Of a DNA stretch of 25,669 nucleotides, positions 3,123 through 21,709 are shown piece by piece. This stretch comes from a virus. The stretch spans positions 1-25,669 of the IMG/VR virus record IMGVR_UViG_3300026209_000010. One strand, written 5' to 3'. The notes beneath the pieces were generated by a model, which had not been told where the DNA came from, did no database searches, and was given only the letters and a program-made list of their open reading frames with translations. How positions within the stretch are numbered: the stretch's first letter is position 1; every line of letters starts with the position of its first letter. A program made the translations under genes and the position numbers.

Positions 3123-5615
3123 ATGAAGTTCTATACCAGTGTTGAGCAGGCAGGTGATGCAATTCTGGTTCGTGGTTATGAATATGGCAGATCATTCCAA
3201 GATAGGGTAAAGTTTAATCCTACTTTGTTCCTCCCTTCCCCCACTAAAGGGAAGTGGAAGACATTGGATGGTAAGAATGTTCGTGCTGTGAAGCAGGGTA
3301 CTATTAAGGAGTCTAAGAAATTTATTGAAGATCATAAAGGTCTTCCTGATTTTGAAATTTGTGGTCAGACTAGGTATGTGAATCAGTATATTTTTGAAGA
3401 ATATCCTGATGAAGATGTTAAGTTTGATATAAACCAGATTCGTATTTTTACTATTGATATTGAAACTGGTGCTGAGAATGGATTTCCTGATATTCGTAGT
3501 GCCGACCAGGAGATTCTTCTGATTAGCATTAAGGATTCATATTCTGGTAAGGTATCTGTATTTGGTACACGTTCTTTTGAGAATACTCATAAGGATGTAA
3601 ACTATATGCACTTCCAGACTGAGGAAGGTATGTTACGGGCATTCCTTCATTATTGGTCTTCTAATTACCCTGATGTAATCACTGGATGGAACGTTCAACT
3701 GTTTGATATACCTTACATTATTCGTAGGGTCGAACGGTTGCTTGGTGGTAGTGAATCAAAGATTATATCTCCATGGAAAAATGTTTATTTTCGTGAGATC
3801 TTTATCAAAGGTCGTAAGTATATTGCTTATGATATTACTGGTATTGCGACTCTTGATTACTATGAATTGTATAAGAAATTTACGTATACGAACCAGGAAT
3901 CTTATCGCTTAGATCACATTGCTTTTGTTGAACTGGGTGAGAAGAAATTAGATCACTCAGAATATGATACATTCAAAGAATTCTATGATAATGATTGGCA
4001 AAAGTTTGTAGAGTATAATATCATTGACGTTCGTTTGGTTGATAAACTAGATGATAAGATGAAACTTTTGGAACTTGCTATTACTATGGCATATGATGCC
4101 AAGATTAATTTTGAAGATGTATACTCACAGATTAGAATGTGGGATAACATCATATATGTTAATCTAGCACGTCAGAATATAGTAATTCCTCCTAAAAAGG
4201 AGAGTAATAAGGATCAGCAATATGTAGGTGCTTATGTTAAGGAACCGATTCCAGGAAAGTATGATTGGGTTGTTAGTTTTGACCTTAACAGTCTGTATCC
4301 CCATCTTATCATGCAGTATAATCTTTCACCAGAAACCTTATTATCAAAAAAGCACCCCAGTGCATCGATTGAACGGTTACTTTATAAGAAAGAACAGTTA
4401 GATAATTTAGATGGTGTTGCGTTATGTGCTAATGGCACGATGTATGACACTACATTTCAGGGTTTTCTTCCTAAACTTATGGAGAAAATTTATGAAGAAC
4501 GTACCATCTATAAGAAGAAGATGATCGAAGCAAAGAAATCTTATGAGAAGACTCCTAGTGTCGAATTAAAGAAGGAGATTGCCAGGTGTAATAACATCCA
4601 GATGGCACGTAAGATCCAATTGAATAGTGCTTATGGTGCTATTGGTAATGAACACTTTAGATACTATCGTTTGGAAATTGCAGAAGCAATTACTACATCA
4701 GGACAGTTATCTATTAGGTGGATTGGTAATAAGATGAATAAGTATCTTAACAGGGTACTTAAAACGGAGGATGTTGATTATGTTATTGCTTCAGATACTG
4801 ATTCCATGTATCTTAATCTCGGTCCTTTGGTTGACCGTGTATACGAAGGGAGAGAGAAAACTGATCAAGGCGTTGTCGCGTTCCTTGATAAGATCTGTCA
4901 ATTGGAATTTGAGCCGTATATTGAAAGTTCTTACCAAGAATTGGCCGACTACTTAAATGCTTATGAGCAGAAGATGGTCATGGCACGAGAGAATATTTCT
5001 TCTAAGGGTATCTGGACTGCAAAGAAGAGATACATTCTGAATGTGTGGGACAGTGAGGGTGTTAGGTACGAAAAACCCAAGATGAAAATCATGGGATTGG
5101 AGACACAACGATCTTCTGTTCCACAGTACTTTAGAGATAGACTTCTTGATGCATTTGAGATCATTATTGATGGTACTAATGAGGATATTTCTAACTTTAT
5201 TACTAAGGTAAAAAAGGAAACAAAGGAACAAGATTATTCAGATATAGCATTTCCACGTGGTGTTAATGGACTTGAAAAATATAAAGATCCTACTGATATT
5301 TACAGTAAGGGTACACCAATTCATGTGAGGGGTGCATTGTTATATAATTATTACCTCAAGAAGTATAAGATTGAACATAAACATCAGAAAATTCAAGAGG
5401 GAGAGAAGATCAAATACATGTATTTAAAGACACCTAATCCAATTCATGAGAATGCTATTAGTTTTTTTGGTGAATTGCCTAAAGAGTTTGGTGTTGAGAA
5501 ATATGTCGATTACAACGTACAATTCGAGAAGTCCTTTTACGAACCACTCAAAACTGTGCTACAATGCATAGGTTGGTTACCGGACGCACGAGTGTCATTA
5601 CTACAATTTTTTTAA
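3123..5615 (+). CDS. gp43: T4-like family B DNA polymerase gp43
   Basis: An 830-residue replicative polymerase with 3'-5' proofreading, somewhat shorter than T4 gp43 (898). Exonuclease motifs are IDIET with Asp112 and Glu114 (Exo I), GWNVQLFD with Asp195 (Exo II) and Tyr298-x3-Asp302 (Exo III). Polymerase motif A is FDLNSLYPHL with Asp387, motif B is KIQLNSAYG at 497-505 and motif C is SDTDS with the catalytic Asp pair at 558 and 560. All catalytic residues are present, so it should be active. The ATG abuts the previous stop. A single continuous ORF means it is not split, as some T4-like polymerase genes are. It would work with the clamp, clamp loader (outside this window), gp41 and gp61. Confidence 0.97.
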   Translation: MKFYTSVEQAGDAILVRGYEYGRSFQDRVKFNPTLFLPSPTKGKWKTLDGKNVRAVKQGTIKESKKFIEDHKGLPDFEICGQTRYVNQYIFEEYPDEDVKFDINQIRIFTIDIETGAENGFPDIRSADQEILLISIKDSYSGKVSVFGTRSFENTHKDVNYMHFQTEEGMLRAFLHYWSSNYPDVITGWNVQLFDIPYIIRRVERLLGGSESKIISPWKNVYFREIFIKGRKYIAYDITGIATLDYYELYKKFTYTNQESYRLDHIAFVELGEKKLDHSEYDTFKEFYDNDWQKFVEYNIIDVRLVDKLDDKMKLLELAITMAYDAKINFEDVYSQIRMWDNIIYVNLARQNIVIPPKKESNKDQQYVGAYVKEPIPGKYDWVVSFDLNSLYPHLIMQYNLSPETLLSKKHPSASIERLLYKKEQLDNLDGVALCANGTMYDTTFQGFLPKLMEKIYEERTIYKKKMIEAKKSYEKTPSVELKKEIARCNNIQMARKIQLNSAYGAIGNEHFRYYRLEIAEAITTSGQLSIRWIGNKMNKYLNRVLKTEDVDYVIASDTDSMYLNLGPLVDRVYEGREKTDQGVVAFLDKICQLEFEPYIESSYQELADYLNAYEQKMVMARENISSKGIWTAKKRYILNVWDSEGVRYEKPKMKIMGLETQRSSVPQYFRDRLLDAFEIIIDGTNEDISNFITKVKKETKEQDYSDIAFPRGVNGLEKYKDPTDIYSKGTPIHVRGALLYNYYLKKYKIEHKHQKIQEGEKIKYMYLKTPNPIHENAISFFGELPKEFGVEKYVDYNVQFEKSFYEPLKTVLQCIGWLPDARVSLLQFF

Positions 5616-8828: not shown

Positions 8829-10373
8829 ATGGCCAATAAACAAACAGAGTGGGGTATATTAACTGGTAATTGGGTTAGAAGAGCCACCGATGTAACTGAT
8901 TGTCTTATTGGTGAAGGATATAACTACCTATCTTTTAATATTAATAATGTAGCAGATCCCAAGAGTGGAAAGAAGATAGTTCTTGGTTTGAAGGTAGAAG
9001 TACCAGAAGCAGAAAGAACTAGAGCAGTTAATAATATTAAGAATGCTTTAGTAAATAAGACTGTAAGTAATTGGAATCAGGGTAAGTCAAAGTATAGTTT
9101 TCGTGAAGGTACTCCAGACAGGCAAATTGATATTCCTGTTACAGTAGGTAAGACTGAAAAATTATTTCGTATATATGTAAAACCACTAAAGAGTGGTGGG
9201 TCTGGTGGTGGTGCAGCACAAACTGCTATTAATGAATGTACTTTTGCTGTGTATGCTTCACTACGTTATAATGTTATTAAGGCAGATTTAGATCCTGAAC
9301 TAGGTATTAGTGAGGATCATTGGAATGAAGCATTTAATTATTGTAGACTTGATAAGAGTAAGGATAGGGTAGGGGTTCCTGATATGCTTTGGCACGTATC
9401 TCATTGTGCTGGAGTAAATAAACTTCATCAACGTGTGACGATGAAGGGTACTGGTAATGTTATATTCTATCGTGGCAAGGATATTGATGGTAAAAATACT
9501 GTTAAAGGAAGTTTATCGAAAGCATATAATAGGGTAAAGAGTGAAATTGGTGGTGTTTCCGAGGATAAGTGGAATCCTGCTGATGTGTGGATGTCAGTTG
9601 ATGGTTTTACATCTGATCTTGATTCCAAGCCGTTTATTGATGATGTAAATGATTACATTTTAAAACTTGCTGGTACAATCACAACAAATAAAATATCAGA
9701 TGCAACATTGGTTGGTATTTCTTTAAAGAAACTTGGTGCTAATGCTAACTTTTCTATACTTAATGCTGGATCATCACAAGATAGGAAGGATGCTGCTAAA
9801 TCTATAAAGTTTATTAATAAAAATCAACAAGGTGGGTATCAATTATTCTTTGAGAATAGAGGAGCAAATCCTATTGACTTTTATTTGTATTATAGTTCTG
9901 GATTCTATGATAAATTCCAGTGTAGAAACTTTGGTGGTAAGAAGGCATCGTGGCAGATAGAACTCAAGGGAGCAACAGCAGCACATGGTCGTGTTGGAGG
10001 TGAGCAAGTTGCTAACATAGTTAATAAGATAACAGGAAAAAATGCTTTCCCATGGAAAAACCAAACTTTCCATTCAGAATGTGGTAAAAAACATTCACAA
10101 GCTAATAAGATTACAAAAGAGATTGTTGATCTTTTAATAGATTTTGACGCACAGAATATTAAAAAGGGAGATTCTATTATCAAGGATAGAGATCAGTATA
10201 CATTTGAGATTTCTCAAAAGGAACAGGAGTGGAGGTATAGTAAATTGAATGGATTGCGTTTCTTGAAAGCATTGGGGGATAATTCTGAACATGCAGATCA
10301 AATAGTACAATCTCTTTATTTGTATGCTAGTTCACAACTAGATAAGTCATCTCTATTCGTTAAGATATACTAA
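8829..10373 (+). CDS. large protein with PD-(D/E)XK-like nuclease motifs
   Basis: A 514-residue protein I cannot name with certainty. It contains a glycine-rich loop followed by a glutamate (KSGGSGGGAAQTAINE, residues 121-136), then KWNPADVW (247-254) and GISLKK (296-301). The order Glu136, Asp252 and Lys300 in a short strand is that expected of a PD-(D/E)XK endonuclease; this is inference from motif spacing. No signal peptide or membrane segment is seen. The stop overlaps the start of the ligase/nucleotidyltransferase gene by one base (TAATG), so the two are translationally coupled and probably act together on nucleic acid. An alternative is a structural protein with coincidental motifs. GC content and codon use match the neighbours. 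Confidence 0.6.
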   Translation: MANKQTEWGILTGNWVRRATDVTDCLIGEGYNYLSFNINNVADPKSGKKIVLGLKVEVPEAERTRAVNNIKNALVNKTVSNWNQGKSKYSFREGTPDRQIDIPVTVGKTEKLFRIYVKPLKSGGSGGGAAQTAINECTFAVYASLRYNVIKADLDPELGISEDHWNEAFNYCRLDKSKDRVGVPDMLWHVSHCAGVNKLHQRVTMKGTGNVIFYRGKDIDGKNTVKGSLSKAYNRVKSEIGGVSEDKWNPADVWMSVDGFTSDLDSKPFIDDVNDYILKLAGTITTNKISDATLVGISLKKLGANANFSILNAGSSQDRKDAAKSIKFINKNQQGGYQLFFENRGANPIDFYLYYSSGFYDKFQCRNFGGKKASWQIELKGATAAHGRVGGEQVANIVNKITGKNAFPWKNQTFHSECGKKHSQANKITKEIVDLLIDFDAQNIKKGDSIIKDRDQYTFEISQKEQEWRYSKLNGLRFLKALGDNSEHADQIVQSLYLYASSQLDKSSLFVKIY

Positions 10374-12232
10374 TGGCAAACATAGAAAAGCTAAAACATT
10401 TAGAACATCTTGAGGATGAGATGCTTAACTATGGAGTTGAGGGTTGTAAGAGAATTGTTGGTGATCTTAAAGAACTTCGACAAATGTTAGGGTGTTCAGG
10501 AACGTCATATATACAGACCAAATGGGATGGTAAACCCGCTGTAGTATGTGGTGTTGATCCTATTACTAAATTATTTTTTGTTGGTACGAAATCTGTATTC
10601 AATAAAGATTTTCCAAAGGCTGCAGTGTCTGAAAGTGGAGTAGATTCTTACTACGGTGAGATACCAGACCTAGCAGAGAAATTAAAGATATGTTTGAGAC
10701 ACCTTCCCAAGTTAGGGATTAAAGGTGTGTTGCAAGGTGACCTTTTGTACACTAAATCTGACTTAAAAACAGAGAGAATTCATGGTCATAATATGCATGT
10801 GTTTAAACCAAATACAATTGCATATGCTATTCCTACAGATCATGAGATTGGTAGGAAAATAAAGGGATCCCAGATGGGAATAGTATTTCATACTCATTAT
10901 ACTGGTGATGATCTTCCTACAATGGTAGCAAGACCAGGCATTGGGGAGAAAATAGGTCAGTCTAAAGATATAGTTAACATTGATAATGATACTCCAATGC
11001 ATAACGTTGGTTTATCACCACAAGAGGAGAGAGAATTTGATCATACTGTTGCTAAAATTGGTGAAGAATGTAGGAAGTGTGGTGATTTTTTAGATGAACT
11101 TGTGTTATCTGGTGGTGGAAAAGGTAATCCAACAGGTGATGACAAGTTTAATATTGCACCATACGTTAAGAAGTATTTTAACCATGAGATATCACATGAT
11201 AAGGTGACTACAAAAGTTGATGATACTATGCAGGGTTTGCTTAATTTTTATTATCTCTCTGTAGAGAAAGAAATTATAAAAGGTAAGCAAGCAAAAACTG
11301 TTGCTTCAAAGTTAGCAATAGTTAAATCTGGTATGGAATATTTGATGGAGAATACTGCTAAATTTAAGTCAATGATAAACCTTTATAGGTTGATTCAAAA
11401 TTTAAAATTGCAGATCGTTAAGAAGTTAGATCCTCTTGAGAAGTTTCGTACCTTTGTTTTGAAAGATAATAAGTATGAGGTGACTAATCCAGAAGGGTAT
11501 GTCTTACATAGAGATGGTAACATGGTTAAGTTAGTTAACCGTCTTGAGTTCTCTAAAAATAATTTCATGGCAGGTGGAAATAGACCTAAAAAACCTGTAG
11601 ATGAGAGAATTTCATCTCTAGTATACTCTCAATACAAGGGTTATCCTGGAAAGAAAATAGTTATATCATTTGGTAGGTTTCAACCACCTACAAAAGGACA
11701 TCTTGCTAACCTTGATGAGTGTAAGAGGGTAGCACAACAAGAAGGTGCTCATGATTATAGAGTTTATCTTGCACAGAAACATCAATCAGATAGTAACTAT
11801 AAAGAAAAGCAGGGTACTGATCCATTACCACCAGATAGAAAGTTATATTGGATGGTTAAGATGTTTGGTAGTAGACATCCAAATAAGATATTTGGTGGTC
11901 ATAGGTTACCAAAGAATATGCTAGCAGAATTAATGATGCAGGGTTATCGTCATGTGATTTTTCTTGCTGGTCTTGAAGATTATAATACGTGGAATAATTA
12001 TTTGCCGAGGTATAATGGTATACCACCATGGGATTATACCTTTTTTACTTTTGAGATAAGGAGTTCTGGTGATAGACTAGAAGGAGTAAAAGGTACAAAA
12101 CAAAGAATTTATGCAGCAACAGGAGATTATAAAAATTTTGCTAGTAACATTGAAGGATTATCAGAAGCTGATAAAAAGAAATTTATGAAAGAACTACAAC
12201 AATATATACCTCCAACCTATAAAGGAAAATAA
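10373..12232 (+). CDS. fusion: polynucleotide-ligase-like domain plus cytidylyltransferase-like nucleotidyltransferase
   Basis: A 619-residue two-domain protein. The N-terminal half has hallmarks of the ligase/capping-enzyme superfamily in order: TKWDGKPAVV with the likely nucleophile Lys50 (motif I), GVLQGDLLYT at 118-127 (motif III-like), EGYV at 374-377 (motif IV, the same tetrapeptide as in T4 RNA ligase 2) and VKLV near 385 (motif V-like). The spacing between III and IV is long, suggesting an insertion. The C-terminal part, from about 425, has FGRFQPPTKGHL, the (H/T)xGH motif of NMN/cytidylyl-type nucleotidyltransferases, and GVKGTKQR near 571-578, similar to the SxTxxR motif. Separate proteins of each type occur in marine T4-like phages; here they are joined. 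RNA repair or nucleotide-cofactor metabolism are both possible. Confidence 0.75.
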   Translation: MANIEKLKHLEHLEDEMLNYGVEGCKRIVGDLKELRQMLGCSGTSYIQTKWDGKPAVVCGVDPITKLFFVGTKSVFNKDFPKAAVSESGVDSYYGEIPDLAEKLKICLRHLPKLGIKGVLQGDLLYTKSDLKTERIHGHNMHVFKPNTIAYAIPTDHEIGRKIKGSQMGIVFHTHYTGDDLPTMVARPGIGEKIGQSKDIVNIDNDTPMHNVGLSPQEEREFDHTVAKIGEECRKCGDFLDELVLSGGGKGNPTGDDKFNIAPYVKKYFNHEISHDKVTTKVDDTMQGLLNFYYLSVEKEIIKGKQAKTVASKLAIVKSGMEYLMENTAKFKSMINLYRLIQNLKLQIVKKLDPLEKFRTFVLKDNKYEVTNPEGYVLHRDGNMVKLVNRLEFSKNNFMAGGNRPKKPVDERISSLVYSQYKGYPGKKIVISFGRFQPPTKGHLANLDECKRVAQQEGAHDYRVYLAQKHQSDSNYKEKQGTDPLPPDRKLYWMVKMFGSRHPNKIFGGHRLPKNMLAELMMQGYRHVIFLAGLEDYNTWNNYLPRYNGIPPWDYTFFTFEIRSSGDRLEGVKGTKQRIYAATGDYKNFASNIEGLSEADKKKFMKELQQYIPPTYKGK

Positions 12233-12233
12233 A

Positions 12234-12509
12234 ATGAAGAACTTTAAAAAGATACGTGAAGAGGCATTGCGTCAACAGGTTAGACATGATGATGTCTTCC
12301 GAGAGGGTGATAACATTATGTCATCAAAGACTGGAGACAAGGGTACAATACATCGTATAGGTACTAACTATGTTATTTGTATTTCCGAGTATGGTGATAT
12401 GTTTCGTGCCTGGATTAAGGATGTGAGGCATATCAATTTGAATGAAAGCATAAATAAAGACAGAAAAAGTACTATTTTAAAACATGGAAAGGCAAAAACC
12501 AATCAATAG
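12234..12509 (+). CDS. small protein with SH3/KOW-like core (91 aa)
   Basis: A 91-residue basic protein. The central segment GDNIMSSKTGDKGTIHRIG followed by NYVICISEYGDMFRAWI has the strand pattern of a small SH3-like or KOW-like barrel (G-D at the start, G-x-I mid-strand, then paired strands). Similar short modules are recurrent in T4-like cyanophages without known function. The start is one base after the preceding stop, and the end overlaps the zinc-knuckle gene by 26 bases. A late-type promoter element lies in its 3' part. The fold is inferred by eye. Confidence 0.65.
   Translation: MKNFKKIREEALRQQVRHDDVFREGDNIMSSKTGDKGTIHRIGTNYVICISEYGDMFRAWIKDVRHINLNESINKDRKSTILKHGKAKTNQ
12449..12456 (+). 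promoter_or_regulatory. late-promoter-like element before the zinc-knuckle gene
   Basis: CATAAATA, one mismatch from the T4 late consensus TATAAATA, 27 bases upstream of ATG 12484. The distance suits a promoter for that gene. It lies within the preceding coding sequence, so confidence is moderate. Confidence 0.45.
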
Positions 12510-13134
12510 TGTTCAGCACAATGATGCCTATTCACAGGCGCTGATGGATTCTTATAGTCAGTGGATGAGTGGAAAAGGTTTTCAACAGTCTGATCCATTG
12601 ACAGAGGATGGTATTCCTGCTGAACAGAAACAAGGTGGTGAAAGTACAGGTGCATTTGTTACTCCTATAGGAACAGTTCCTGCTCCTGAGAGTGATGAAT
12701 CTTCTTCTATTCCAGAAGTAAAGAAGGAAGGTGGAGAGGATAATTTTTCAACTAAAGATCCTAAAGCAAATGCTGGATCACCTGATCCTGCTGTGAATCT
12801 TCGTGTTCGTGCTGGTGTTAAGCAGTCCCATGGTGCTACTATTAGGGACGTAACAAAGGTTGCTAAAGAAGAAGTTGAAGTTGAAGAGAGTCATGACTGT
12901 TGTAAGAAGTGTGGTAGTATGAAGCACACAACAAATGAATGTAAGGAAACGAAAGAGAAAGTTGAGTCTTATCAGTGGGATGTAGTTGGTGAAGCATTGG
13001 AAATTCTTGGTGAAATTACTGAAGCCAAGTACCATGTACGTGGTGTTAAGTTAAATGAACAACCACATAAGACTACTAGTAAGCTTCTTGCTTATAACAA
13101 GAGACTGCAGGAGAAGAACTCCGAAAAAAAGTAA
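12484..13134 (+). CDS. CCHC zinc-knuckle protein of unknown function, ending at a frameshift signal
   Basis: A 216-residue protein. Residues 1-135 are Pro/Ser/Glu/Gly-rich and probably disordered. Residues 140-153 (CKKCGSMKHTTNEC) fit CX2CX4HX4C exactly, the zinc-knuckle spacing known from retroviral nucleocapsids and nucleic-acid-binding proteins. The tail is Lys-rich and helical. Nucleic-acid binding is therefore likely; the partner is unknown. The gene ends in GAA AAA AAG TAA: the heptamer A AAA AAG sits immediately before the stop, and the -1 frame stays open for another 48 codons. The product may thus exist in two lengths. Possible roles include virion assembly or scaffolding. Confidence 0.75.
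   Translation: MERQKPINSVQHNDAYSQALMDSYSQWMSGKGFQQSDPLTEDGIPAEQKQGGESTGAFVTPIGTVPAPESDESSSIPEVKKEGGEDNFSTKDPKANAGSPDPAVNLRVRAGVKQSHGATIRDVTKVAKEEVEVEESHDCCKKCGSMKHTTNECKETKEKVESYQWDVVGEALEILGEITEAKYHVRGVKLNEQPHKTTSKLLAYNKRLQEKNSEKK
13109..13131 (+). promoter_or_regulatory. candidate programmed -1 ribosomal frameshift signal
   Basis: The Shine-Dalgarno-like AGGAG at 13109-13113 is followed, 11 bases on, by the slippery heptamer A AAA AAG (13125-13131) in the correct phase, then the zero-frame stop TAA. This matches the arrangement of E. coli dnaX (same heptamer, SD-like stimulator about 10 bases upstream). A weak stem (AGGC 13135-13138 with GCCT 13157-13160) may follow. An indel in the 7-A run would give the same appearance. 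Confidence 0.55.
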
Positions 13135-13154
13135 AGGCGGCAACTATCGAGATC

Positions 13155-13274
13155 ATGCCTGATATTAAGGATGGTGCCGAGAAGCAAGCCGAACGTAAAA
13201 AGAATAAAAAGTATGTGCAGTTGGCGGTAAAATCGCAACGTAAAGATACTGAAGGAAAAACTTCCGGAAGGTAG
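13155..13274 (+). CDS. basic 39-aa ORF, or -1 frameshift extension of the zinc-knuckle protein
   Basis: The frame is open from the slippery site to TAG 13272-13274. As a -1 extension, the residues after the shared Lys begin VKAATIEIMPDIKDG and run for 47 residues. As a separate gene it would start at ATG 13155 and give 39 residues, without a clear ribosome-binding site. The segment is very rich in Lys, Arg and Gln (KKNKKYVQLAVKSQRKD), like the tail of the upstream protein, which favours the extension reading. It fills most of the space before the next gene. A basic tail would suit nucleic-acid binding. The third explanation is a one-base deletion or sequencing error in a single longer gene. 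Confidence 0.5.
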   Translation: MPDIKDGAEKQAERKKNKKYVQLAVKSQRKDTEGKTSGR

Positions 13275-13282
13275 TATAAATA
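13275..13282 (+). promoter_or_regulatory. T4-type late promoter element TATAAATA
   Basis: A perfect match to the T4 late promoter -10 consensus, 25 bases upstream of ATG 13308. T4-type late promoters need only this element plus phage sigma factor gp55 and the clamp. It immediately precedes a strong inverted repeat. Confidence 0.7.
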
Positions 13283-16396: not shown

Positions 16397-17395
16397 ATGA
16401 GTTTTATTGACGCAAAATATATAACTCTTGTATCTGGGCGACTGACATTGTTTAGTCGTAAGAAGGAAGGGTTGTATAATTTTAGGTGTCCTTACTGTGG
16501 TGATTCACAGAGGAAGAAGAATAAGTGTCGGGGGTATATCTTCCGGATGAAAAATGATTATGTATACAAATGTCACAATTGTGGTGTTGGTAGAACATTT
16601 ACAAATTTTCTGAAGGACCAGGATATTTTACTCCATGATCAGTATATTATGGAGAGATATAGGGAGGGACTTACTGGTAAAAATAGTCAGACACCTTCGC
16701 CTAAGTTTGATTTTAAAAAACCTGTCTTTAAAACAAAAAAGAAGATAGATTTACCAAAAATTTCTGAACTAAATACAACACATCCAGCGAGATTATATTT
16801 AGAAAACAGAAAAATAAATGATCTATCTCGCTTTTATTATTGCGAGAAGTTTAAGGAGTGGACTAATACTTTAAAGCATACCTTTCAGGATATGCGAGGA
16901 GATAATCCACGTATAATACTACCAATGTATACGGTAGATAATGATTTGTTTGGGTTTCAGGGTAGATCCTTGTCTCCCAATACAAATTTAAGATACATCA
17001 CTGTAATGTTAGATGATGACCACCCGAAAGTATATGGACTTGAAACAATCAACAGACTACAATCAGTATACATCGTCGAAGGACCATTTGACAGCACGTT
17101 CATTCGCAACTCGATTGCTATGTGCGGAGCTGATATTCATGTTGATGGTATCGGGATTAGCAGCCCTGTTTGGGTATATGATAACGAACCAAGAAATCCC
17201 GAAATCATCAAACGTATCAAGACTACTATTGCCGCCAAGCAAGGTAATCAAGTAGTCATTTGGCCGTCTAATATACAGCAAAAGGACATAAATGATATGG
17301 TCCTTGCTGGACATGATGTTCAATCTGTGGTAGAATCGAATACGTATTCTGGACTGGAAGCACAAGTAAAATTAAACACCTGGAAAAAGATATGA
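16397..17395 (+). CDS. gp61: DNA primase gp61
   Basis: A 332-residue primase of the T4 gp61 type. The N-terminal zinc ribbon uses Cys31/Cys34 (CPYCG) and Cys59/Cys62 (CHNCG). The Toprim region includes VYIVEGPFDS with the catalytic-type Glu and VVIWPSNIQQKDINDMV near the C-terminus. It makes RNA primers for lagging-strand synthesis on the gp41 helicase. Its length is close to T4 gp61 (342). The gene has its own near-consensus promoter and shares ATGA with nrdA, linking primer synthesis to dNTP supply in one transcript. Confidence 0.93.
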   Translation: MSFIDAKYITLVSGRLTLFSRKKEGLYNFRCPYCGDSQRKKNKCRGYIFRMKNDYVYKCHNCGVGRTFTNFLKDQDILLHDQYIMERYREGLTGKNSQTPSPKFDFKKPVFKTKKKIDLPKISELNTTHPARLYLENRKINDLSRFYYCEKFKEWTNTLKHTFQDMRGDNPRIILPMYTVDNDLFGFQGRSLSPNTNLRYITVMLDDDHPKVYGLETINRLQSVYIVEGPFDSTFIRNSIAMCGADIHVDGIGISSPVWVYDNEPRNPEIIKRIKTTIAAKQGNQVVIWPSNIQQKDINDMVLAGHDVQSVVESNTYSGLEAQVKLNTWKKI

Positions 17396-19737
17396 CGAAC
17401 GGCATTAATGTTGTTAAGCGAGATGCATCTGTTACGGCACTGAATTTAGATAAGATTCATAGGATGGTTGAAGATGCTTGTGAAGGATTGGCGGGAGTAT
17501 CTGCTTCGCAGGTGGAAATTCAATCTGGTTTGCAGTTCTTTGATGGTATTACTACACATGATATCCAAGAGATTCTTATCAGATCTGCGAATGATTTAAT
17601 TTCATTAGATAATCCTAACTATCAATTTGTAGCAGCACGTCTTCTGTTGTTTGGTGTTCGTAAAGAAACATTTAATAAGAATGTATGGAAGGATGGTATG
17701 CCATCTATATTTGATGTTGCTGCCTATAATGTTACAGTTAATGAAGTTTATGATGAAGAAATATTAGATAAGTACTCCGAAGAGGAATGGCAGAAGATAG
17801 ATAGTTGGATAGATCATGATCGTGACTATTTGTTTACATATGCTGGTTTACGGCAAGTTGTAGATAAATATCTGGTACAAGATCGTAGTACTGGGGAAAT
17901 CTTTGAGACTCCACAGTACATGTATATGATGATAGCAGCAACGCTGTTCACAGAATACCCACTCACAACACGTTTAGATTACATAAGGAAATATTATGAC
18001 GCAATCAGCAGACACAAAATCAACATCCCTACCCCGATCATGGCGGGAGTACGGACCCCTATTCGTCAATTTGCTAGCTGTGTTCTGGTTGATATTGATG
18101 ACTCCCTCGATAGTATCTTTAGTTCTGATATGGCTATTGGCAAATATGTCGCACAGAGGGCTGGTATCGGTCTTAATTCGGGTAGGATCAGAGGAATCAA
18201 CTCTAAAATCAGAGGAGGAGAAGTACAACACACAGGTGTGGTCCCCTTCCTCAAAAAGTTTGAGTCAACTGTTAGATGTTGTACTCAAAATGGCATCAGG
18301 GGTGGATCAGCAACTGTCCACTTTCCTATCTGGCACCAAGAAATCCGAGACATCCTCGTCCTCAAAAACAACAAAGGAACCGAAGACAACAGAGTCAGAA
18401 AACTAGATTATAGTATACAGATAAGTAAACTATTCTATGAAAGGTTTATCCAAAACGGAGATATTACGTTATTCAGTCCTCATGATGTCCCTGGCCTTTA
18501 TAATGCTTTTGGGACCGATAGTTTTGATGAGCTCTATGAGATATACGAATCTGATGATTCAATCTCACGAACATCAATCCCTGCCCAAGAATTAATTCTT
18601 GATCTATTAAAGGAGAGAGCAGAGACTGGACGGATCTATATCATGAATATAGATCACTGTAATAGTCACTCATCATTCAAGGATAAGGTGTACATGAGTA
18701 ATCTTTGTCAAGAGATTACTTTACCTACCACACCTATTCAACATATTGATGGTGAAGGTGAAATTGCATTGTGTATTCTTTCTGCCATCAACGTAGGTAC
18801 ACTACGTAAACTTGATGACTTAGAAGAATTGTGTGACTTAGCAGTACGTGGTCTGGAAGAACTTATTGATTACCAGAACTATCCTGTTATTGCTGCAGAG
18901 AAATCAACTAAGGAACGTAGGTCTATTGGTGTTGGGTTCATTGGACTAGCACATTATCTTGCTAAGAATGGTGTTAAGTATGAGGATCCTAAAGCATTGA
19001 AGTTGGTTCATGATTTATCAGAAGCATTCCAATTTAATCTTCTTAAATCTAGTAATCAATTAGCAAAGGAGAAAGGAGCATGTGGTGCATTTGCTAGGAC
19101 AAAGTACTCAGATGGTATTCTTCCAATTGATACATATAAGAATGATGTTGATGAGCTAGTATCTAATGACCTTAGTTTTGATTGGGAGACTTTACGGGGA
19201 GACATACAGTCCGATGGGCTTAGGCACTCAACACTGTCAGCACAAATGCCATCAGAGAGCAGTTCCGTTGTGTCAAATGCAACCAATGGAATCGAACCAC
19301 CCAGAGATTACTTGTCCATTAAAAAGTCAAAGAAAGGGCCTCTTAAGCAGATTGTTCCATCGTATGGGACTTTAAAGAATGCTTATACGCTCCTTTGGGA
19401 TATGTCTGGGAATACTGGTTATATTAATATTGTTGCTGTTATGCAAAAGTTCTTTGATCAAGCGATTTCTGGAAATTGGTCCTATAATCCGGAGCATTTC
19501 AGCAACGCTGAAGTTCCTGTTAGCGTAATGGCACAGGACTTGCTGACGACTTATAAGTATGGGTGGAAGACTTCTTACTATCAGAATACATATGATGCTA
19601 AGCGAGATGTAGATGAACCATCACATCCTATTGGATGGCATGATGATGTTGAGGAAGATAAACTAAAACAGGTAAAAGATTTGTTAGATGATATATTAAC
19701 TACAGAAGAGGAGGACTGTGATGCTTGCAAGCTCTGA
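17392..19737 (+). CDS. nrdA: class I ribonucleotide reductase large subunit NrdA
   Basis: A 781-residue alpha subunit that reduces ribonucleoside diphosphates. An ATP-cone-like N-terminus (VVKRDASVTALNLDKI) is followed by the (alpha/beta)10 barrel. The redox pair is Cys230 (ASCVLVD) and Cys461 (LCILSAINVG). The active site NLCQE gives Asn437, Cys439 and Glu441, and the radical-transfer tyrosines are Tyr729 and Tyr730 (YYQNTYD). The C-terminal CDACKL carries the thioredoxin/glutaredoxin-reactive Cys pair. All key residues are present, so the enzyme should be active with NrdB. The gene is coupled to gp61 upstream and overlaps nrdB downstream. Confidence 0.97.
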   Translation: MTNGINVVKRDASVTALNLDKIHRMVEDACEGLAGVSASQVEIQSGLQFFDGITTHDIQEILIRSANDLISLDNPNYQFVAARLLLFGVRKETFNKNVWKDGMPSIFDVAAYNVTVNEVYDEEILDKYSEEEWQKIDSWIDHDRDYLFTYAGLRQVVDKYLVQDRSTGEIFETPQYMYMMIAATLFTEYPLTTRLDYIRKYYDAISRHKINIPTPIMAGVRTPIRQFASCVLVDIDDSLDSIFSSDMAIGKYVAQRAGIGLNSGRIRGINSKIRGGEVQHTGVVPFLKKFESTVRCCTQNGIRGGSATVHFPIWHQEIRDILVLKNNKGTEDNRVRKLDYSIQISKLFYERFIQNGDITLFSPHDVPGLYNAFGTDSFDELYEIYESDDSISRTSIPAQELILDLLKERAETGRIYIMNIDHCNSHSSFKDKVYMSNLCQEITLPTTPIQHIDGEGEIALCILSAINVGTLRKLDDLEELCDLAVRGLEELIDYQNYPVIAAEKSTKERRSIGVGFIGLAHYLAKNGVKYEDPKALKLVHDLSEAFQFNLLKSSNQLAKEKGACGAFARTKYSDGILPIDTYKNDVDELVSNDLSFDWETLRGDIQSDGLRHSTLSAQMPSESSSVVSNATNGIEPPRDYLSIKKSKKGPLKQIVPSYGTLKNAYTLLWDMSGNTGYINIVAVMQKFFDQAISGNWSYNPEHFSNAEVPVSVMAQDLLTTYKYGWKTSYYQNTYDAKRDVDEPSHPIGWHDDVEEDKLKQVKDLLDDILTTEEEDCDACKL

Positions 19738-20878
19738 TGTGAAAGGAATGACCGTATTTAATACAAACAAAGTAAATACTCTCAAGCAACCTATGTTCTT
19801 TGGTGCTCCATTGGGAGTCCAAAGGTATGATGAATTTAAGTATCCAATTTTTGAACGGTTAACACAGACACAGTTAAGTTATTACTGGAGACCTGAAGAA
19901 GTTTCTCTTCAGAAAGATCGTGTTGATTATCATAGTCTTCGACCAGAACAAAAGCATATCTTTACTTCTAATTTGAAGTATCAGATCATGTTAGATTCTG
20001 TACAAGGTAGAGCACCTGGTATGGTATTCATGCCTTATGTTTCTTTACCGGAATTAGAAGCATGTATGAACATCTGGCAGACTATGGAGATGATTCACTC
20101 TAGGTCATATACGTATATCATCAAGAACGTGTACCCAGATCCTACTGAAGTGTTGGATACCATCATTACCGATGAACGTATCCTTGAGAGAGCACGAAGC
20201 GTCACAGAGGCATATGATGAGTTCTTGATGGTGGCAAATGAATGGGGTTCTGGTAATATGTGGAAATCTGATATGAAAGATTCTCCATCTGCCGATTGGC
20301 ACATGAAAGATATGAAAACAAAATTGTATCTTGCTGTTGTTAATGTGTATATTCTAGAAGCAATTCGTTTTTATGTGTCATTTGCATGTTCTTTTGCTTT
20401 TGGTGAGTTGAAGATCATGGAAGGTAACGCAAAAATCATTAGTTTAATTGCACGAGATGAGTCGCAACACATGACTGTCACTCAGAATATTATAAAAAAT
20501 TGGGTTAATGGTGATGATCCTGTCATGATAGATATTGCTAAGGAACAAGAAGAGAATGTCTATCGTATGTTTGAAAAATGTGTACAAGAAGAAGAAGTTT
20601 GGGCAGACTATCTCTTTAAGGATGGTAGTATGATTGGATTGAATGCTAAACTTTTACGTAAGTATGTTGAATGGATTGCTAATCGTCGTATGAAATCCAT
20701 AGGATTGAAACCTATATATGATGTACCTATGTCACATAATCCTCTTCCATGGACTGCACATTGGTTGTCTTCTAAAGGACTTCAGGTAGCACCACAAGAG
20801 ACTGAAGTAGAGTCTTATATTGTTGGTGGTATTAAGCAGGATGTGGAGAAAGATACTTTCGCTGGATTTAAATTATGA
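19721..20878 (+). CDS. nrdB: class Ia ribonucleotide reductase small subunit NrdB
   Basis: A 385-residue diiron-tyrosyl radical subunit. Ligands are visible as the Asp in LDSVQGR, the ExxH pair of EMIHSRSY with radical Tyr130, the Glu in SFAFGELK and RDESQH (Glu and His). The C-terminal tail DTFAGFKL would bind NrdA. ATG 19721 is preferred because GAGGAG at 19708-19713 sits at ideal spacing; GTG 19718 and ATG 19748 are alternatives. The presence of the radical tyrosine distinguishes it from Tyr-lacking class Ic forms. The gene overlaps nrdA by 17 bases and shares ATGA with the next gene. Confidence 0.96.
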   Translation: MLASSDVKGMTVFNTNKVNTLKQPMFFGAPLGVQRYDEFKYPIFERLTQTQLSYYWRPEEVSLQKDRVDYHSLRPEQKHIFTSNLKYQIMLDSVQGRAPGMVFMPYVSLPELEACMNIWQTMEMIHSRSYTYIIKNVYPDPTEVLDTIITDERILERARSVTEAYDEFLMVANEWGSGNMWKSDMKDSPSADWHMKDMKTKLYLAVVNVYILEAIRFYVSFACSFAFGELKIMEGNAKIISLIARDESQHMTVTQNIIKNWVNGDDPVMIDIAKEQEENVYRMFEKCVQEEEVWADYLFKDGSMIGLNAKLLRKYVEWIANRRMKSIGLKPIYDVPMSHNPLPWTAHWLSSKGLQVAPQETEVESYIVGGIKQDVEKDTFAGFKL

Positions 20879-21377: not shown

Positions 21378-21709
21378 AAACACAATCAGCGAAGTCTAAA
21401 GGACGCTTACTCCAAAAATGGGTAAGAACCATGCTTATCGAGATACTTGATGTGCATCCAGAAGATCTTGAGTCTAGATCTATGGGTGCTGGTGGCGAAG
21501 ATCTTATTATGGCCCGAGCAGCAAGAAAAAAGTTCCCACATTCTATAGAATGTAAGAACGTAGAACGATTAAATGTCTGGGATGCATACGAACAGGCATG
21601 TGATAATGCTGGTGACTACGAACCGTTGGTTGTTATAAAGAAGAATAGAAAAGATCCATTGGTTGTAGTTGATGCTCAATATTTTATTAAACTATTTGAG
21701 GATAAATAA
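21374..21709 (+). CDS. PD-(D/E)XK nuclease-like protein (111 aa)
   Basis: A 111-residue protein with an N-terminal basic helix (KSKGRLLQKWVRTMLIEIL), then SMGAGGEDLIM (Glu42, Asp43) and SIECKN (Glu59, Lys61). Asp43, Glu59 and Lys61 have the spacing of a PD-(D/E)XK active site in a small endonuclease, similar to phage resolvase-like enzymes. It may process recombination or replication intermediates, or degrade host DNA to feed NrdA/NrdB; this is inference. ATG 21374 is chosen over GTG 21368 because it forms an ATGA overlap with the previous frame. It ends one base into the next gene. Confidence 0.75.
   Translation: MKTQSAKSKGRLLQKWVRTMLIEILDVHPEDLESRSMGAGGEDLIMARAARKKFPHSIECKNVERLNVWDAYEQACDNAGDYEPLVVIKKNRKDPLVVVDAQYFIKLFEDK

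Follow-up and report, generated by a model that had tools for sequence, protein, structure and literature searches.

Bacteriophage T7 gene 10 yields a short main product (10A) and a C-terminally extended one (10B) by −1 frameshifting near its stop codon, and in dnaX the Shine–Dalgarno (SD)-like element and the hairpin are spaced about 10 nt and 5–6 nt, respectively, from the slippery site. The dnaX cassette combines an A_AAA_AAG heptamer, an upstream SD-like element and a downstream hairpin, according to PMC3711429, and PMC5009743 gives A_AAA_AAG as the natural dnaX shift site in Escherichia coli, which has a single tRNA-Lys. T4-like tail chaperones reportedly rely on another mechanism in place of frameshifting (Vladimirov et al. 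2022, as cited in PMC10885494), and the searchable part of the literature yielded no earlier report of frameshifting in cyanophages.

The 25,669-nt stretch of viral DNA analysed here (the window) comes from a T4-like cyanophage (Kyanoviridae), as a fragment encoding DNA polymerase, UvsX, a DnaB-like helicase, ribonucleotide reductase and Hsp20, with AG-345-P14 as its nearest named record. On its plus strand, the zero-frame open reading frame (ORF) of a modular cyanophage protein (PHROG 4359; 12484..13134, 216 aa) ends GAA AAA AAG TAA, with the heptamer A AAA AAG (13125..13131) in X_XXY_YYZ phase and abutting the TAA stop (13132..13134). An SD-like AGGAG (13109..13113) ends 11 nt before the heptamer, and the stem of a predicted hairpin (13138..13179) begins 6 nt past it, both on the same strand. 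The −1 frame is entered at GTA (13131) and continues, rich in Lys and Arg, for 47 codons to 13271, closing with TAG at 13272–13274; this extension, VKAATIEIMPDIKDGAEKQAERKKNKKYVQLAVKSQRKDTEGKTSGR (13131..13274, plus strand), belongs to PHROG 11250 and is followed immediately by TATAAATA at 13275–13282. A sequence-only reading of the window, which had proposed a programmed −1 frameshift here, had the ORF ending, the in-phase heptamer and AGGAG at 11 nt right to the base, and its open, basic −1 frame of 47 codons stands; the hairpin it had missed.

Very probably, this gene is decoded by programmed −1 ribosomal frameshifting of the dnaX type, a mechanism that appears to be the best explanation of the junction by a wide margin; we infer the slip itself from comparing sequences. 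On ...GAA AAA AAG, a ribosome would be paused between an SD-like contact ~11 nt upstream and the hairpin ~6 nt downstream; the two tRNA-Lys(UUU) on AAA and AAG would re-pair one base further back, on AAA AAA, and translation would pass the adjacent zero-frame stop. The complete genome of Synechococcus RCC307, a picocyanobacterial relative of the hosts that serves as stand-in for the host of this phage, contains one tRNA-Lys gene, with anticodon UUU, among the 41 tRNAs found by Rfam search; a single tRNA-Lys is also the setting in which A_AAA_AAG slips in E. coli. Both forms are most likely made: the 216-aa zero-frame product, ending ...NSEKK, and a 263-aa fused product that would add 47 residues of conserved, basic C-terminal sequence. 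Across many ocean cyanobacterial viruses, what is annotated as two adjacent genes appears to be a single one, giving the same protein with a short or a long tail.

The heptamer alone is common in the window, with 12 copies on both strands against 9.2 expected, and four besides the one at the junction lie in phase within other ORFs, so the case for frameshifting rests on comparison. Those inside other long ORFs lie at 4346–4352, 5210–5216 (DNA polymerase), 16735–16741 (primase) and 21526–21532. What beats chance is the conservation of the heptamer at this junction. We scanned IMG/VR DNA from the tail side for the −1-frame motif [VI][EQ][VI]MP[DE]..DG, with no heptamer required, and obtained, together with the first loci, 98 homologous loci with 66 distinct junctions. 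Four contigs (L104, L126, L141 and L159) were dropped as chance matches of the tail pattern within an unrelated gene. AAAAAAG in phase, abutting the zero-frame stop and accompanied by an open −1 frame, is present at all 66 junctions, although these sequences are mutually related and neither junctions nor loci count as independent trials. The zero-frame stop itself varies (TAA 41, TGA 18, TAG 7). The codon preceding AAA AAG is GAA in 53 junctions, TCA in 6, GCA in 5 and GGA in 2; the residue at this position can be Glu, Ser, Ala or Gly, and the codon's final A is invariant. Elsewhere in these ORFs, Lys-Lys is written AAGAAA 212 times, AAGAAG 160, AAAAAA 39 and AAAAAG only 24 (24/435), so codon usage does not explain an AAA AAG ending.

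From the head side, the N-terminal 70 residues served as query, and among the best 80 of 313 hits, 73 loci had the end of the ORF inside the contig; AAAAAAG, stop and open −1 frame are found together in 72 of these 73, a set that favours the group with MERQKP-type N-termini because only the best 80 of 313 hits were taken. The sole locus without the heptamer, L232, has a premature stop at codon 68, and another locus on its contig, L113, has the heptamer. The N-terminus of the zero-frame protein is conserved (MERQKPxNSVxHND..SxAL..SY..WM), with a CCHC zinc-knuckle-like module mid-protein. Approached from either side, then, the junction invariantly keeps an in-phase heptamer, a stop right behind it and a −1 frame that stays open, and in most members the SD-like element, a comparison that supports the sequence-only reading in its proposal of a programmed frameshift.

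The same comparison bears on two other ways of obtaining a split frame. Homopolymer runs are prone to sequencing error, and the split could in principle stem, at the A run, from an error of sequencing or assembly or from a mutation that broke the frame recently. The same state, however, recurs in separately sequenced isolates—S-PM2, Syn1, S-RIM32, S-CAM1, S-CAM3, S-H9-2 and the Sf phages—and in dozens of metagenomic contigs, and among the homologues found there is none with the continuous single frame that the sequence-only reading had named as the sign of an indel; refuted already by independent genomes, this explanation is vanishingly improbable. Transcriptional slippage, in which mRNAs gaining or losing one base would join the frames, could draw on the A7 run (A6 in some families) present at every site. 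Yet 6–7 A is short of the examples cited in PMC3711429 (An, n > 7), and slippage by the polymerase would require neither the final G, nor the phase, nor the adjacent stop, nor an RNA hairpin at fixed distance, which makes it highly improbable.

In the window, the SD-like element and the predicted hairpin are those expected of a dnaX-type cassette. An SD-like element of at least 4 bases lies 7–11 nt upstream of the heptamer in the window and in 51 of the 66 distinct junctions; it is missing in the remainder, and is absent in the TCA/GCA/GGA (Ser/Ala/Gly) families. Downstream, the stem of a predicted hairpin begins 5–7 nt past the heptamer (z averages −3.7 over the largest class and is −2.0 for the window itself), and in every class this position has the lowest mean folding energy among the tested offsets: in the main class the 46-nt mean is −19.4 kcal/mol, against −4 to −8 at other offsets. 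In a class of 26 sequences, 91.2% of stem cells are paired and five pairs are changed on both sides, with compensatory changes, for example from C-G to G-C at columns 5–44 and from A-U to U-A at 8–41; the stem pairs covary with a score of 0.265, compared with ≤0.151 in slid registers. In other tail families the hairpin is a different one, placed at a similar distance from the heptamer. The S-PM2/Syn1 class combines the best SD-like element (AAGGAGG) with the weakest hairpin (mean z −1.5); this weak hairpin, like the SD-like element lacking in the Ser/Ala/Gly families, weighs against the frameshift reading.

Selection on the −1 frame begins before any start codon. In the class with the window's spacing, the first four codons past the slip, which lie outside the search pattern, have an excess of synonymous change in the −1 frame only: single-base changes, counted pairwise and hence not independent, are synonymous to non-synonymous as 694 to 634 in that frame, whereas the other two give 340 to 973 and 12 to 1482. 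In S-CAM1-like and other tails, EACGCDDKP precedes the VE[VI]MP motif and resembles MKTFKQxREECGCKDK, the N-terminus of the separate ORF in the ATGA group described below, and in TAA members with EACGCDDKP (for example L093 and L135) no ATG, GTG or TTG stands ahead of those residues. In L128 and L150 the −1 frame carries the module KKKGLDGKACWKGYSQRGTKQKGGKTVDNCVK, which no ATG, GTG or TTG precedes, while S-H9-2 carries the module in the zero frame, with 87.5% identity over 32 residues to L128/L150. The synonymous excess and the start-less module both indicate that selection acts at the protein level on the −1 frame across the junction. A tblastn search with a short Lys-rich tail as query returned no matches.

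These observations weigh against a reading of the locus as two genes, in which the downstream frame would be re-initiated, by coupled termination and restart, at ATG 13155 or, at junctions that have one, at a stop-overlapping GTG. The sequence-only reading had raised ATG 13155 as a possible separate start, and the codon is indeed conserved; database annotations begin the second ORF at that ATG or at GTG. The ATG is, however, part of a motif in which the residues ahead of it are likewise conserved; in the largest class the hairpin's paired upper stem contains it, and by inspection no good SD stands before it. In 18 of the 66 junctions the stop is TGA and the −1 codon GTG, which could start a second protein; the other 48 have TAA or TAG and therefore no overlapping GTG start, and in the window TAA leads to the −1 codon GTA, with no start overlapping the zero-frame stop. 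Re-initiation would leave unexplained the invariant A AAA AAG and the invariant A before it, as well as the conserved residues upstream of ATG 13155 and the start-less conserved module. Even with a second part that has its own ATG in the relatives considered next, we regard two separate genes as an improbable account of this junction.

Six Kyanoviridae genera have isolates with the frameshift arrangement, S-PM2, Syn1 and S-CAM3 among them, and there it is annotated as two genes. Because the second ORF is annotated from an internal start in S-PM2 (gp142/gp143; L008), Syn1 (Syn1_163/164; L010), S-H9-2 (L007), S-RIM32 (L389) and Sf-CH11 (L394), the deposited proteins are without the conserved junction residues. 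In S-RSM4, S-WAM2 and ACG-2014e, with MKYQKP-type N-termini, and in S-MbCM7, the same parts are joined by an ATGA overlap that gives the second part its own ATG, and A AAA AAG is not present at the same place. The more distant L003 ends TAT AAG AAG TAG with a short open −1 frame; frameshifting is thus a trait of one group rather than of every homologue. We lean towards the view that related phage groups decode one coding pair in two ways, by a −1 slip (MERQKP) or by ATGA stop–start coupling (MKYQKP), forming a natural series between fused and separate proteins in which modules may also cross the junction between frames. In L004 (1501–2741), L102, L109, L127, L128 and L150, modules that are zero-frame in other phages sit on the −1 side of the junction, as though the site of slippage formed a constant seam where modules can be swapped. 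The −1-frame modules can vary among relatives: S-PM2 has a DUF3008-like end and S-H9-2 a GKKYERMVKHIKK end.

The protein itself is Lys/Glu-rich and built from interchangeable modules, which include CCHC or CxxC metal-binding motifs, DxDNDGDxD loops and Lys-rich ends. Its designation as a zinc-knuckle protein in the sequence-only reading holds for the spacing, C-x2-C-x4-H-x4-C, and falters beyond it, since the CCHC zinc knuckle family PF13917 scores 15.7 bits in the window and 20.2 in AG-345-P14 against a curated cut-off of 27, and the motif is absent from most relatives. The nucleic-acid binding that the sequence-only reading assigned to the two tails is a candidate property. The gene is flanked by cytidylyltransferase/T4-GC534 genes on one side and T4-GC424 on the other. 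T4-GC534 (12234–12509, 91 aa) is labelled NrdB, ribonucleotide reductase alpha subunit or cytidylyltransferase in public records; with the true NrdA/NrdB at 17392–20878, these labels look like propagated annotation errors. At 10373–12232, DUF6267 and cytidylyltransferase form a single 619-aa ORF in the window and two overlapping genes in most related phages. A tree of this neighbouring cytidylyltransferase has long branches, with a wrong segment as its S-PM2 row and a divergent window copy, and is uninformative about how many times the frameshift state arose. According to PMC3037559, purified S-SM1 virions contain the neighbouring T4-GC190 cytidylyltransferase, making a virion or assembly role plausible. 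As a best guess, the protein is associated with the virion or with assembly, and the slip would set its ratio of short to long forms.

If this reading is true, widespread viruses that infect ocean cyanobacteria, the model phages S-PM2 and Syn1 among them, carry a fixed and overlooked frameshift: the genomes of these two phages have been public for years with the gene split in two, an annotation that would now be corrected, and T4-like phages would gain a recoding site. The alignment of naturally occurring heptamers, SD-like elements and hairpins is also a resource for studying the switch between frameshifting and re-initiation on cyanobacterial ribosomes. The mechanism is a known one, dnaX-type, in a new gene. 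Like the dnaX signal of E. coli (tau/gamma), the cyanophage site has A_AAA_AAG with an SD-like element upstream and a hairpin downstream; unlike dnaX, it lies in an unrelated gene encoding unrelated proteins, lacks the SD-like element in some families, and has a stop abutting the heptamer, and the shift would give the longer product where in dnaX it gives the shorter. T7 gene 10 offers a phage gene with short and extended products made by −1 frameshifting near a stop, but at another site and in an unrelated protein, the cyanophage protein not being a major capsid protein. Tail assembly chaperones of the lambda G/GT type share with the proposed cyanophage cassette a conserved phage −1 frameshift that fuses two annotated ORFs, whereas the cyanophage gene lies outside the tail-chaperone position.
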